A stretch of DNA of 64,000 bases, from contig NZ_CP139302.1 of the NCBI RefSeq assembly GCF_034092375.1, positions 1,240,001 to 1,304,000 on the forward strand, written 5' to 3'. Origin of the DNA: Prochlorococcus sp. MIT 1300 (GTDB lineage Bacteria; Cyanobacteriota; Cyanobacteriia; PCC-6307; Cyanobiaceae). Positions 9,272-13,066 of this stretch are shown here, piece after piece. Positions within the stretch are counted from its first letter, which is position 1, and each line of letters begins with the position of its first letter. Under the pieces are notes generated by a model. The model had not been told where the DNA came from. It saw only the letters and a program-made list of their open reading frames with translations, and searched no databases. Position numbers and translations under genes: made by a program.

Positions 9272-9410
9272 GAGTACAAGTGTATTAGTCGGCTAGTTGC
9301 CAGTGCTTAATTCACCTTTGAGTTTCTTCACCACATCCAAGTCCATCGTTTTTGGACAATTCTGCAGGGTTTGGTTTGTTCATCGGCTTAGTGGTTTCAA
9401 TCTTTGCAAT

Positions 9411-9524
9411 ATGGCAGTTGTCAGCCTTGTGCTTTTTGCAACATGTTTGGCTCCGGAGGAGCCTGCTCGACAAGCTTCCATCTGCGAAAGATATAACTCT
9501 CCACAGGCTTGTCGGGTGCTGTAA
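9411..9524 (+). CDS. candidate small secreted Cys-containing peptide (37 aa)
   Basis: Short ORF starting at the ATG at 9411. Residues 1-15 are hydrophobic (MAVVSLVLFATCLAPEE) and look like a signal or membrane segment. The short tail reads RQASICERYNSPQACRVL, with two Cys spaced as in a small disulfide loop. The frame is open further upstream to 9297, but that part is not protein-like. I recall similar short peptides ending in a C-x-R-x-N-S-P-Q-x-C motif in marine picocyanobacteria, which I cannot verify here. Function unknown. Confidence 0.5.
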   Translation: MAVVSLVLFATCLAPEEPARQASICERYNSPQACRVL

Positions 9525-9532
9525 ACGGTTTA

Positions 9533-9970
9533 TTAGGCCGCTTGTAAACTCCATTCTTCATCCAAAGTAGTTTTGCTTTGAGATTGTTTTTCAGGAATAT
9601 GAGATTGTTTTTGCTTCTCCAACTCTGATGGTTTTGCCCATTGGAGTAAACGTAATGCAAGGCGAAGATCGCCATCCATCCATGCCCTTATGGCCATTGC
9701 GCGTCGTGGGTCATAGAAGCGTTGACGCCTGTACCAATGGAAAGCTTCTTCATCAGATTTGTCACCATTACACGAAAGACATGCTGGCACACAATTTTCT
9801 GTAAGGCTTAACCCTCCTCTGCTGCGAGGGATAATGTGATCAATAGATTCAGAAGCTTTCCCGCAATAAATGCAACTCTTTTGGGTAAATGCATGTAGCG
9901 ATTGCCTCCACCTTCTAGCTCTTAATTTTGGGCAGAGATCATCGAGAAAAACCGCGTCTCTGTAGTGCAT
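9533..9970 (-). CDS. HNH endonuclease
   Basis: HNH-family nuclease of 145 residues. The core has CIYCGK (Cys33, Cys36), the catalytic DHIIPRSRGG (Asp44-His45), Asn59, and CLSCNGDK (Cys64, Cys67). The four Cys form the zinc-binding knuckle typical of this class. The N-terminus is basic (RARRWRQSLHAFTQK), fitting DNA contact. The C-terminal 50 residues are a low-complexity Gln/Lys/Ser tail. It is divergent from the SNF2-type helicase at 10154, with 183 bases between. HNH proteins serve restriction, homing, repair or phage defence, and the substrate is not given by the sequence. Confidence 0.9.
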   Translation of the reverse strand: MHYRDAVFLDDLCPKLRARRWRQSLHAFTQKSCIYCGKASESIDHIIPRSRGGLSLTENCVPACLSCNGDKSDEEAFHWYRRQRFYDPRRAMAIRAWMDGDLRLALRLLQWAKPSELEKQKQSHIPEKQSQSKTTLDEEWSLQAA

Positions 9971-10153
9971 CCGAGGTTATCGGTTGAAGTCAGTTTGCCT
10001 TGATTGAAGAGTAAGTCAATGTTTGTTTTGTTCTATTTACAGTTCTAGTTCTTTGCTTGCTAACTTTCTTGCCAGATTCTCTAAAAGCAGTAAATTTGTT
10101 TTTACTCTCAAACTGGATTTGTTCTTACGTCTTTAACTCGTTGTTCTCTGGGC

Positions 10154-11722
10154 TTGACCTCAGGAGGTTTGATAAAAGTATCGTTTCCTTTTGATGCGGT
10201 TACTCATGCTCAATTACGCAGAATTAGGCCTCGAGGTTATTGGCGGGGTTCTCGAGTTGGCTGGGAATTTCCCTTGGCTGCAGCTAACAGTCTTCAAAAT
10301 TATTTAGGGAACAGATTTGTAGTTGAAGAAGAATTAACTAATTGGTTGTCTTTGTTTAATCATCCCTTACCTCCTTTGCCCAGGCATAGGTTTTTAATTT
10401 CAGAGGGAGATTTAGACAAAGAGTTATTAGATGGTCGCCATCCCCTTTCGCACCAGCGTGTTGGTGCTAGATGGTTGTTGGCTAGGCGAGGGGCGGTACT
10501 GGCGGATGAAATGGGGCTTGGAAAGACTTTGACAGCACTTTTAGCTGCTAGGGCAATGGTGCGAGCAGCAAATGTCAAGGTAATGGTTATTGCTCCAGTA
10601 GGTCTCCACAATCATTGGCTTTATGAAGCTAAAGCTTTGGGATTATCTATTCATTTGCAAAGTTGGGCCAAATTGCCCAAGGAGTTGCCAAAAGCTGGAA
10701 CAGTTTTAATCGTTGATGAGGCACATTTTGCACAAAACATTAAGGCAAAAAGAACTCAAGCAATGTTGCGCCTCGCTCGGCATCCACGTTTACGAGCAAT
10801 ATGGTTGATCACTGGAACACCATTTAAGAATGGCCGACCTTCACAGCTGTTTCCACTATTAGCTGCTATCGATCACCCTTTAGCTAGAGATCAAGTCAAT
10901 TACGAAAAGTCTTTTTGTAATGGTCATTGGGTAGAGAAACAAGGCCGCCAAGTTTGGGATTGTTTAGGTGTAAGTAATTTGAGTATTCTTCGTCAGTTAA
11001 TTAGACCTTTGTTTTTAAGCCGTAGAAAACAGTATATTTTGGACTTGCCTCCCAAATATCGATTTGATCATAAAGTTGTTTTAACTGACTCTCAGGCGCT
11101 TGGTTTTGACCATCGAATTGACTTAGTGATAGATGATTATCGTAGAAGAGTTCAAGAAGGCTTAGTTTCGTCAGATGCAGAATCATTAGCAATTTTAACT
11201 TCTTTGAGAAGAATTGGCTCCGAGTTTAAATTGCCAGCTGTGAAAAAGTTTTTAGAAGATAGACTTCGCAAATCTGAGGCAGTAGTTATTTTTAGCAATT
11301 TTGTAGAGCCATTGGAATTGCTTCAAAGTAGCCTCGGGGGAGAACTCCTGACAGGTCGTCAGAAACTTGTAGAACGAGAGGAAGCTGTAAATAATTTTCA
11401 AGGAGGATCTAGTTCTTTGCTATTTGCAACTTTTGCTGCTGGTGGCTTAGGTTTTACTTTGCATAAGGCAAGGCATGTGGTTTTACTTGAGAGACCTTGG
11501 AGTCCTGGAGATGTTTTACAGGCTGAAGATAGATGTCATAGAATTGGTATGGATTCTGCTCTTAATATTCATTGGTTTAAGTTGGGTTTTGCAGATCAAT
11601 TGGTAGATGCTCTAGTTTCCACAAAAAATGACACCATAGAAGTTTTGCTAGGTCATGATAAGTTGCGCATCAAGCGTCAATCATTGGCAAAAATGTTGCT
11701 TAGTTGTGTGCAGGATGCCTGA
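10154..11722 (+). CDS. SNF2-family DNA helicase/translocase with HARP-like N-terminal domain
   Basis: SF2/SNF2 ATPase of 522 residues. Motif I is LADEMGLGKTLTALL (Lys124), motif II is DEAH (188-191), motif III ITGTPFKNG. Motifs V-VI are FAAGGLGFTLHKARHVVLLE and QAEDRCHRIGM. Residues 7-56 (KVSFPFDAVTHAQLRRI...YW...GWEFPL) resemble the HARP domain of annealing helicases such as SMARCAL1, by inspection only. The start is uncertain: TTG at 10154 is used here, while AGGAGG at 10162-10167 lies too close to the next TTG (10169) but could serve a start a few codons in. It is divergent from the HNH nuclease gene. The 3' end overlaps the convergent lipoprotein gene by 46 bases. Confidence 0.88.
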   Translation: MTSGGLIKVSFPFDAVTHAQLRRIRPRGYWRGSRVGWEFPLAAANSLQNYLGNRFVVEEELTNWLSLFNHPLPPLPRHRFLISEGDLDKELLDGRHPLSHQRVGARWLLARRGAVLADEMGLGKTLTALLAARAMVRAANVKVMVIAPVGLHNHWLYEAKALGLSIHLQSWAKLPKELPKAGTVLIVDEAHFAQNIKAKRTQAMLRLARHPRLRAIWLITGTPFKNGRPSQLFPLLAAIDHPLARDQVNYEKSFCNGHWVEKQGRQVWDCLGVSNLSILRQLIRPLFLSRRKQYILDLPPKYRFDHKVVLTDSQALGFDHRIDLVIDDYRRRVQEGLVSSDAESLAILTSLRRIGSEFKLPAVKKFLEDRLRKSEAVVIFSNFVEPLELLQSSLGGELLTGRQKLVEREEAVNNFQGGSSSLLFATFAAGGLGFTLHKARHVVLLERPWSPGDVLQAEDRCHRIGMDSALNIHWFKLGFADQLVDALVSTKNDTIEVLLGHDKLRIKRQSLAKMLLSCVQDA

Positions 11723-12057
11723 CGAATTCTGAATTCTGCTTTAAGGATTGGATCATTAAAATTATCTTGTGACTTAATTAGTTTTGTTGCTGCAAGAACA
11801 TCTTCACATGCTTTTTCCTTGTTATTATTTAAGATGTGTAAAAGGACTCGATCATTAATTAAAAAAATATTAGCGGGATATTTTTTGATTAATTCATCAC
11901 ACAAGGCGATAGAAGATCCAATAGATTCAATATTAAGTTTTTCAAGGCAACTGTTTTTGTTGTCTCGATTGCTTCTGATCTCATTGAAATCACAACCTGC
12001 AATCGCAAGCAACAAGCCTGTGCAGAAGATATTAATTAGCCTTTGATAATTCTTCAA
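11677..12057 (-). CDS. putative lipoprotein, unknown function (126 aa)
   Basis: The N-terminus KNYQRLINIFCTGLLLAIAGC is a type II signal peptide with lipobox AIAGC at residues 18-22, so the mature protein should be a lipid-anchored periplasmic or outer-membrane protein. The rest is helical and Lys/Asn-rich, with paired Cys and a TPR-like flavour (SIALCDELIKKYP, KEKACEDVLAATKL), but no domain is certain. It overlaps the upstream exported-protein gene by four bases (ATGA-type, 12054-12057), implying coupling. Its 3' end runs 46 bases into the SNF2 gene on the other strand. Confidence 0.7.
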   Translation of the reverse strand: MKNYQRLINIFCTGLLLAIAGCDFNEIRSNRDNKNSCLEKLNIESIGSSIALCDELIKKYPANIFLINDRVLLHILNNNKEKACEDVLAATKLIKSQDNFNDPILKAEFRIRQASCTQLSNIFAND

Positions 12058-12470
12058 TAGCTATAACGATCCCTGCTTCCTTTTTTCTTAGAATTAATAC
12101 TTTTGTCTTGGATTTCGGATTCACTTATGTTGCTATTAGTGATTGGGGTTGCCCCTCCAAAGAGATCACCAAGATAGCTTCCACAGTTTGGATATGTTGT
12201 TGGCTCCTGGACTACAGCTTCAGTAATCATCACTGCCGCGTGTCTTGGAGATGTTTTGAAGAGCCCATTGGATTGTCTTTTGATCAAGGCATATGCGGCC
12301 CTCCAGCTGACTTCATGTTCATTTCCATTGTCACGCATATAACAATAAATCTGGGCTCCTTTTTCACTTGTGTCTCTTGGAGAGGCTTGGCCTAACTGGG
12401 TTAGGAGGTTCATGCCAGCCATGCTGATTAGGGTAATGCAGAAGAAAATCCTTTTTGGATTTAGGAACAT
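12054..12470 (-). CDS. putative exported protein, unknown function (138 aa)
   Basis: Begins with a signal-peptide-like segment (IFFCITLISMAGMNLLTQLGQA, about residues 9-30). The mature part has YCYMRDNGNEHEVSWRAAYA and SPRHAAVMITEAVVQ, then PNCGSYLGDLF, and a charged Ser/Lys-rich tail. Two Cys (in YCYM and PNCGSY) may pair outside the cytoplasm. I take it as a conserved picocyanobacterial protein of unknown function. It is first in a two-gene unit with the lipoprotein at 11677-12057, which it overlaps by four bases. Confidence 0.7.
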   Translation of the reverse strand: MFLNPKRIFFCITLISMAGMNLLTQLGQASPRDTSEKGAQIYCYMRDNGNEHEVSWRAAYALIKRQSNGLFKTSPRHAAVMITEAVVQEPTTYPNCGSYLGDLFGGATPITNSNISESEIQDKSINSKKKGSRDRYSY

Positions 12471-12532
12471 TGGTTAAAAGCAAAGCAGTATCCATCAACG
12501 TATCGATTTCTTAGTTTGTGTCCAGAGTTTAT

Positions 12533-13066
12533 TTATGGATTCATAAGACCCAGAGGCCCCAAAAGCCTAACTATTAATGGAAGTAAGAGTAGAACTGTTA
12601 TTAATCTGACGGCATGTAGTGCTGCGACAGCTGCTCCTACTCCTAATTCTGCTCCCACTAGGCTCATTCCACTTATTCCCCCAGGAGCAGCTCCTAGAAG
12701 AGCTACTAAAGGATCTAGCCCTAATAACCTGCTACTCCAAAGCCCAACAACAATTCCTGTCAAAACTAGAGTAGTGGTAATCAGAATTGCTGGGCGCCAA
12801 AGTGTTTGTAGTTGTTCGAATGATTCTCTTGTAAGCCCTGTACCAATGACAGTTCCTATAGCTATTTCTACAGCTGTTCTAGTACCTACAGGCCATTGTG
12901 CTGCATCAAGTCGACCGCTAAGGCTTACAAAGCCTGCGCCGAGTAATGCGCCTGCCAAAGGTGCAGCAGGAATACCGGTAAAGAGCATTAATAGGCCAAT
13001 CGTTGTTCCACCTAATAGGTAAATAAGCAAATTTGATAATTGAAGAGTCATGATTAAATTCTGCAT
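12533..13066 (-). CDS. AbrB-family membrane protein, single repeat (half-size)
   Basis: Integral membrane protein of 177 residues belonging to the AbrB duplication family (once annotated 'ammonia monooxygenase', an obsolete label). Successive hydrophobic segments include LLIYLLGGTTIGLLMLF, AAPLAGALLGAGFVSL, VEIAIGTVIGTGL, and the Gly-rich LLGAAPGGISGMSLVGAELG that marks the family. E. coli AbrB contains two copies of this unit in about 350 residues. Here only one copy is present, so a dimer or a partner half may form the complete membrane unit. The transported substrate is unknown. It stands alone, divergent from the gene at 13168. Confidence 0.8.
   Translation of the reverse strand: MQNLIMTLQLSNLLIYLLGGTTIGLLMLFTGIPAAPLAGALLGAGFVSLSGRLDAAQWPVGTRTAVEIAIGTVIGTGLTRESFEQLQTLWRPAILITTTLVLTGIVVGLWSSRLLGLDPLVALLGAAPGGISGMSLVGAELGVGAAVAALHAVRLITVLLLLPLIVRLLGPLGLMNP

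Follow-up and report, generated by a model that had tools for sequence, protein, structure and literature searches.

A diverged, probably HARP-type SNF2 motor and an HNH nuclease encoded back to back in a conserved picocyanobacterial gene block

SNF2 motors and HNH nucleases meet in the animal protein ZRANB3, which carries the motor at its N-terminus and the HNH domain at its C-terminus, together with PIP, NZF, SRD and APIM elements; HARP is not listed for ZRANB3 in the same review (PMC12841045). In Drosophila SMARCAL1 a single HARP domain is sufficient (PMC4035279), and other SNF2 proteins reportedly gain annealing activity when HARP domains are fused to them (reviewed in PMC4035279). For phages, a survey of jumbo phages proposes that Snf2/Swi2 helicases take the place of UvsW in recombination (PMC7824862). 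In the open-licence literature we found no papers on HARP in phages and none on an HNH-SNF2 gene pair in picocyanobacteria. Here we describe such a pair, which we regard with some confidence as two functionally separate genes, i.e. a phage-type HARP-SNF2 motor and an independently conserved HNH nuclease.

The pair is located in the window, i.e. the whole stretch of 64,000 nucleotides that was analyzed, which belongs to a genome of 1.86 Mb in a single contig. The HNH gene corresponds to the minus-strand ORF 9533..9970 (145 aa, ATG start) and the gene of the HARP-SNF2 family DNA translocase to the plus-strand ORF 10154..11722 (522 aa, TTG start), leaving a divergent intergenic gap of exactly 183 bp (9971..10153). 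These ORF coordinates bear out the preliminary description, which had reported two genes sharing a 183-base divergent gap. The family around the window, which we take to be the Cyanobiaceae of the GTDB, includes Prochlorococcus, Synechococcus, Cyanobium and Vulcanococcus among its named members. Beyond the HNH gene the window carries an epimerase/dehydratase-like gene, pdxA, accB and efp, and beyond the SNF2 gene a small ORF, a gene for a DUF6554 protein and an AbrB-like gene. In most genomes of the family the DUF6554 gene (12054-12470) borders the block, and it is apparently also kept where SNF2 was lost. An Rfam search of positions 9300-12600 returned no match. The annotated TTG start of the SNF2 gene is putative and the start codon is ill-defined: an in-frame ATG upstream of the SNF2 core is absent in 38 of the 78 family loci scanned (one of these 78, L072, being a false anchor), and in two loci (L102 and L119) the stretch from the upstream stop codon to the core contains none of the codons ATG, GTG and TTG. 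Residues upstream of the core look conserved in the start-region scan (window positions 10090-10180), and the gene may use a non-canonical start codon.

The SNF2 protein matches PF00176 (E 9.5e-21, 74.6 bits, cut-off 24.9) and the Helicase_C profile PF00271 (E 3.7e-14, 53.3 bits, cut-off 23.5), and the motifs LADEMGLGKT, DEAH and QAEDRCHRIG are all intact. Within the Walker A stretch DEMGLGKT (residues 118-125; 10505..10528, plus strand), residues D118, M120, G121, G123, K124 and T125 are invariant in the family, as is the Walker B DEAH box (residues 188-191; 10715..10726, plus strand), and nearly every position is invariant in helicase motif VI, QAEDRCHRIG (residues 456-465; 11519..11548, plus strand). 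Both the SNF2-related and the Helicase_C domain as well as the invariant motifs identify the protein as a member of the SNF2-family ATPases, in agreement with the earlier assignment, which relied on DEAH and LADEMGLGKT. The AlphaFold2 model (pLDDT 85.6, pTM 0.76) shows an SNF2 fold; its best structural match is 8atf_G, with 370 residues superposed at rmsd 3.8 (Z 24.5). Foldseek and VIA-align cover the motor alone (residues 69-502), the HARP-like domain lying outside the aligned part, and the absence of a SMARCAL1 or ZRANB3 entry among the structural matches listed says nothing against kinship. A search of BFVD returned many phage SNF2 proteins and no finer placement.

Outside the family, the best matches are encoded on viral contigs, with 41% identity over residues 95-499. 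When 291 genomes sampled across the phylum were searched at E<=1e-40, matches were obtained in 20 genomes of the family and in one genome elsewhere (G194). In the motor tree the family forms one clade with a long stem, which joins the viral proteins L141-L144 with support 1.00. By sequence, the SNF2 protein is closest to phage helicases, and its host range comprises small marine and freshwater cyanobacteria, in which it is a fixed chromosomal gene. Near the viral motors we observed a RusA gene (L141), ERF (L143), a DnaB-like helicase (L144) and a primase/helicase (L147); this small sample suggests a background of phage DNA replication and recombination. An SNF2/RAD54 helicase of strain SS120 (PMC6102989) is a different gene, since it spans about 3.2 kb.

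Upstream of the motor, residues 4-66 (10163..10351, plus strand) form a diverged N-terminal domain, with the HARP-like stretch at residues about 4-62. With PF07443, the Pfam HARP profile, the window protein scored no hit up to E 10, the outcome of a check that the preliminary description had proposed; the domain is therefore called HARP-like and not a curated HARP member. Matches do emerge among its relatives. The N-terminus of L039/L058, the homologue first encountered beyond the family (33-35% identity), hits HARP with E 0.013 to 0.016, below the curated cut-off, and the closest viral homologues match PF07443 just before the SNF2 domain (L141, E 0.0065; L143, E 0.0054). In a mixed set of phage and bacterial SNF2 proteins, PF07443 matched 11 of 30 (best E 7.9e-6); in the cases listed, most scores stayed below the cut-off of 25 bits. 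Eight of these HARP domains, picked by eye for the motif, served as seeds of a new profile. Run against about 51 proteins, which is a small set, this profile found residues 6-51 of the window protein with E 0.00015, and also many of its orthologues with similar or weaker scores. Alignment of the N-terminal profile of the window protein to a phage HARP profile by hhalign gave a probability of 96.6% over 59 columns, with an E-value of 6.9e-10 that refers to one comparison and not to a database. In control runs, 23 stretches taken from elsewhere in this protein alignment reached 0.1-0.3%, and one of 100 column shuffles scored above 20% (maximum 77%). Homology to HARP was thus detected through profiles and intermediates, and we read the N-terminal domain as HARP because the phage relatives match PF07443 and the profiles align with each other. 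The HARP domain suspected previously for this protein is therefore likely by way of phage intermediates and profile-profile comparison, while a direct Pfam match did not materialize. Every link in these comparisons is remote; judged from them, the protein probably belongs to the HARP-SNF2 type with the layout of SMARCAL1, in a diverged form. Two HARP-like units precede the motor in six viral proteins (L174, L175, L181, L186, L214 and L220), as in vertebrate SMARCAL1.

The same data bear on the idea that the protein is a RapA-like ATPase recycling the transcription machinery, or else an ordinary SNF2 protein in which HARP plays no part, which we consider unlikely. A match to NF003426 (E 5.5e-7) points to RapA; it is weak, falls far below the cut-off and is confined to the ATP-binding stretch. 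The negative result with the direct HARP HMM would suit a generic SNF2 protein, but the profile-profile evidence speaks for HARP and the closest relatives are HARP-bearing phage proteins.

The HNH protein, present as one full-length copy in the window genome, matches PF01844 (E 1.5e-10, 41.5 bits, cut-off 21.4) and PF14279 (E 3.2e-9). In its core (residues 33-74; 9749..9874, minus strand), which is the stretch matched by Pfam HNH, C33xxC36, D44-H45, N59, C64xxC67 and N68 are invariant, cyanophage homologues included. Since these residues do not vary, the sequence reads as an HNH motif of the H-N-N variant, accompanied by two CxxC knuckles, and the residues of the beta-beta-alpha-metal core together with the zinc ligands place the protein among the HNH endonucleases. 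The Cys-x2-Cys knuckle and the DH at residues 44-45 noticed earlier are accordingly intact (C33, C36, D44-H45) and backed by the PF01844 match. Within the family a C-terminal element, WYRxQxFYDPRRAMAIRAW, is near-invariant. The AlphaFold model of this protein (pLDDT 58) is too poor to be used. Median identity to the window protein is 72% for HNH and thereby exceeds that of SNF2 (58%), pdxA (57%) and the epimerase-like gene (46%).

Further HNH genes exist in these genomes. One group of Prochlorococcus-like genomes (g18) carries a second paralogue of 113 aa with about 62% identity, which has no C-terminal tail and occupies a separate fixed locus (L055:7149-7487, L229:6923-7261, L230:7359-7697) next to a membrane-protein gene resembling TauE/SafE. 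In the window genome, contig positions 1482497-1482649 belong to a different HNH protein with an open frame of about 188 aa, a type that occurs across cyanobacteria. A UV-induced Prochlorococcus HNH gene, PMM1528, has been described (PMC2921402); it may represent the other HNH family of these genomes and not the HNH gene of the window.

Relatives of the HNH protein in phage collections are mostly cyanophage HNH endonucleases (at least 120 records, 31-41% identity), and some of the cyanophage copies lie on the strand opposite to the flanking structural genes. Both observations would be expected if the gene were a selfish homing endonuclease of cyanophage type that became fixed and merely survives. 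We consider this improbable: the gene occupies one fixed locus in nearly the whole family, is more conserved than most of the flanking genes and is kept in genomes of 1.6-1.8 Mb, its paralogue has been kept vertically in one clade, and a selfish element would decay once fixed. The conservation pattern of HNH fits a cellular role.

Across 151 sampled genomes of the family, SNF2 was found in 105 and HNH in 129, which is more than chance. HNH is present on the same contig in 103 of the 105 genomes with SNF2, always divergently oriented and 97-304 bp away, which is the range of the gap across the family; the remaining two are fragmented assemblies. The survey of gene neighbours proposed in the preliminary description was thus positive, with the pair adjacent in 103 of 103 family genomes carrying both on one contig. 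The family loci that were read share a collinear block that runs from a gene resembling peptidyl-prolyl isomerases through efp, accB, pdxA, the epimerase-like gene, HNH, SNF2, the small ORF, DUF6554 and the AbrB-like gene to others. A scan of genome contigs with the single SNF2 protein as query found no locus; repeated with an SNF2 alignment, it delivered 80 further named picocyanobacterial loci, in which every tested junction of the block holds at 97-100%. The HNH-SNF2 junction was observed in 79 of 79 cases, SNF2-DUF6554 in 76 of 76, epimerase-HNH in 72 of 74, pdxA-epimerase in 75 of 75, accB-pdxA in 71 of 71 and efp-accB in 66 of 66. Linkage of HNH and SNF2 does not rise above background synteny, and their adjacency says nothing in favor of a joint function, because the neighbouring junctions are equally conserved.

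This matters for the proposal of a split ZRANB3-type pair, i.e. a two-protein system in which SNF2 regresses or reanneals branched DNA and HNH nicks the product. Such a system would account for the invariable divergent adjacency, and ZRANB3 itself unites both activities in one protein (PMC12841045). Moreover, SNF2 without HNH was seen solely in one incomplete genome (G119), and both genes are missing together in the lineages G025 and g9/g50. However, the adjacency equals the block background, and one clade lost SNF2 and kept HNH with no visible relaxation. Nor was an HNH gene of the window kind present near SNF2 or HARP-SNF2 genes in any of 80 viral loci, and among the proteins examined no fused SNF2-HNH protein was found. 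We therefore regard the two-protein system as doubtful, and the split pair envisaged at the outset gives way to frozen gene order, which explains the pairing mostly. A wider version, in which HARP-SNF2 and HNH act jointly on branched or stalled replication DNA as a two-gene counterpart of ZRANB3 with a phage-derived motor, and in which the motor-less clade pairs the nuclease with another helicase, appears somewhat more doubtful still.

Of 25 sampled family genomes with HNH and no SNF2, one (G001) has a contig ending at the HNH gene, where the state of SNF2 is not readable. Five HNH-only loci were fully read (L052, L053, L054, L056 and L057); in each the block is kept and SNF2 is removed. These five genomes form one clade, streamlined and Prochlorococcus-like, which indicates one SNF2 loss event followed by long retention of HNH. 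Identity of HNH to the window protein in this clade is 69-77%, the same as in SNF2-bearing relatives. Survival of HNH in this clade indicates that its role does not need SNF2. In the other direction, genomes without HNH are also without SNF2, reflecting about two events. Genome G025 (L222) lacks exactly HNH and SNF2, with intact flanks and about 350 bp between the flanking genes, apparently a clean double loss. Both genes are also missing in g9 and g50; support for where these two branch in the species tree is weak, and gain and loss of the pair are thus not separable there. This asymmetry would fit a weak dependency of SNF2 on HNH.

The fixed position of the pair also bears on an anti-phage defence module composed of helicase and nuclease, which the preliminary description had considered as well. 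Among the PADLOC models, ZorD, DpdE and DrmD do match the SNF2 motor (best E 2.3e-24) and PDC-M01B/PtuB the HNH protein (E 9.7e-8), but these matches are partial and cover the shared motor or the HNH core only. No other Zorya, Dpd, DISARM or Septu gene resides beside the pair, let alone the full gene set of one of these systems. In addition, the pair occupies a single fixed core locus and not variable islands, and HNH is retained in streamlined genomes. A role in defence is thus very unlikely.

Taken together, we favor two functionally separate genes, which share a promoter region within a vertically inherited block of the Cyanobiaceae chromosome. The SNF2 protein would be a compact HARP-SNF2 translocase on double-stranded DNA, kin to the HARP-SNF2 proteins encoded by phages; the family probably obtained it from this phage pool when it arose or close to that time, and has kept it since. 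By analogy with SMARCAL1, HARP would bind branched DNA or single-strand/double-strand junctions, and the motor would drive reannealing, branch migration or fork regression through ATP-driven translocation on the duplex; such a substrate and an annealing or branch-migration activity are most likely on these grounds. HNH is probably a small zinc-knuckle nuclease with nicking or structure-directed activity, which would nick DNA in a separate step of repair or replication; we infer this activity and the repair role from the intact active site and the strong conservation. Two observations speak against the favored reading: HARP was not directly detected in the window protein, and a pure bystander view does not predict that genomes without HNH are devoid of SNF2. 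If the HARP assignment holds, abundant ocean cyanobacteria carry, fixed in their chromosomes, a gene with the annealing-helicase layout that is mostly treated as an innovation of animals, this layout is common in phages, and the 522-aa protein offers a small object for study and a possible source of the eukaryotic family. The motor-less clade that kept HNH provides a natural test of the part of each gene in fork repair in streamlined genomes.

How does the locus compare with known systems? Like ZRANB3/AH2, it brings together an SNF2 motor and an HNH nuclease. However, ZRANB3 is a single polypeptide with the motor first and HNH last, whereas the window encodes the two in separate, divergent genes and not in one polypeptide, and the Pfam domain scan revealed no NZF/RanBP-type zinc finger. 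With SMARCAL1/HARP the window protein shares the placement of HARP directly N-terminal to the SNF2 motor; SMARCAL1 is an animal protein and the sequence similarity is remote. The N-terminal RPA-binding motif of a SMARCAL1 orthologue is absent and would have no room, since only about five residues precede the HARP-like domain. To our knowledge, bacteria lack RPA. For HNH, the best match of solved structure is GmHNH of Geobacter metallireducens (PDB 4h9d; E 2.4e-6, residues 15-73), which aligns over the core alone. Cyanophage HNH proteins (PSS2, P-SSP7, ACG-2014f and others) share the zinc-knuckle core and W-Y-x-x-Q-x-F at 31-36% identity, but the family tail WYRxQxFYDPRRAMAIRAW is eroded in them. 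Closest to the motor are the viral proteins L141-L144 (PHROG 62, "DNA helicase"), which likewise carry a HARP-like domain directly before the SNF2 motor and form one clade with the picocyanobacterial protein at 31-37% overall identity and at most 41% over the motor. Phage versions often possess a further N-terminal region and some possess two HARP-like units, whereas the picocyanobacterial version is a short gene fixed in the chromosome, and its HARP is more diverged.
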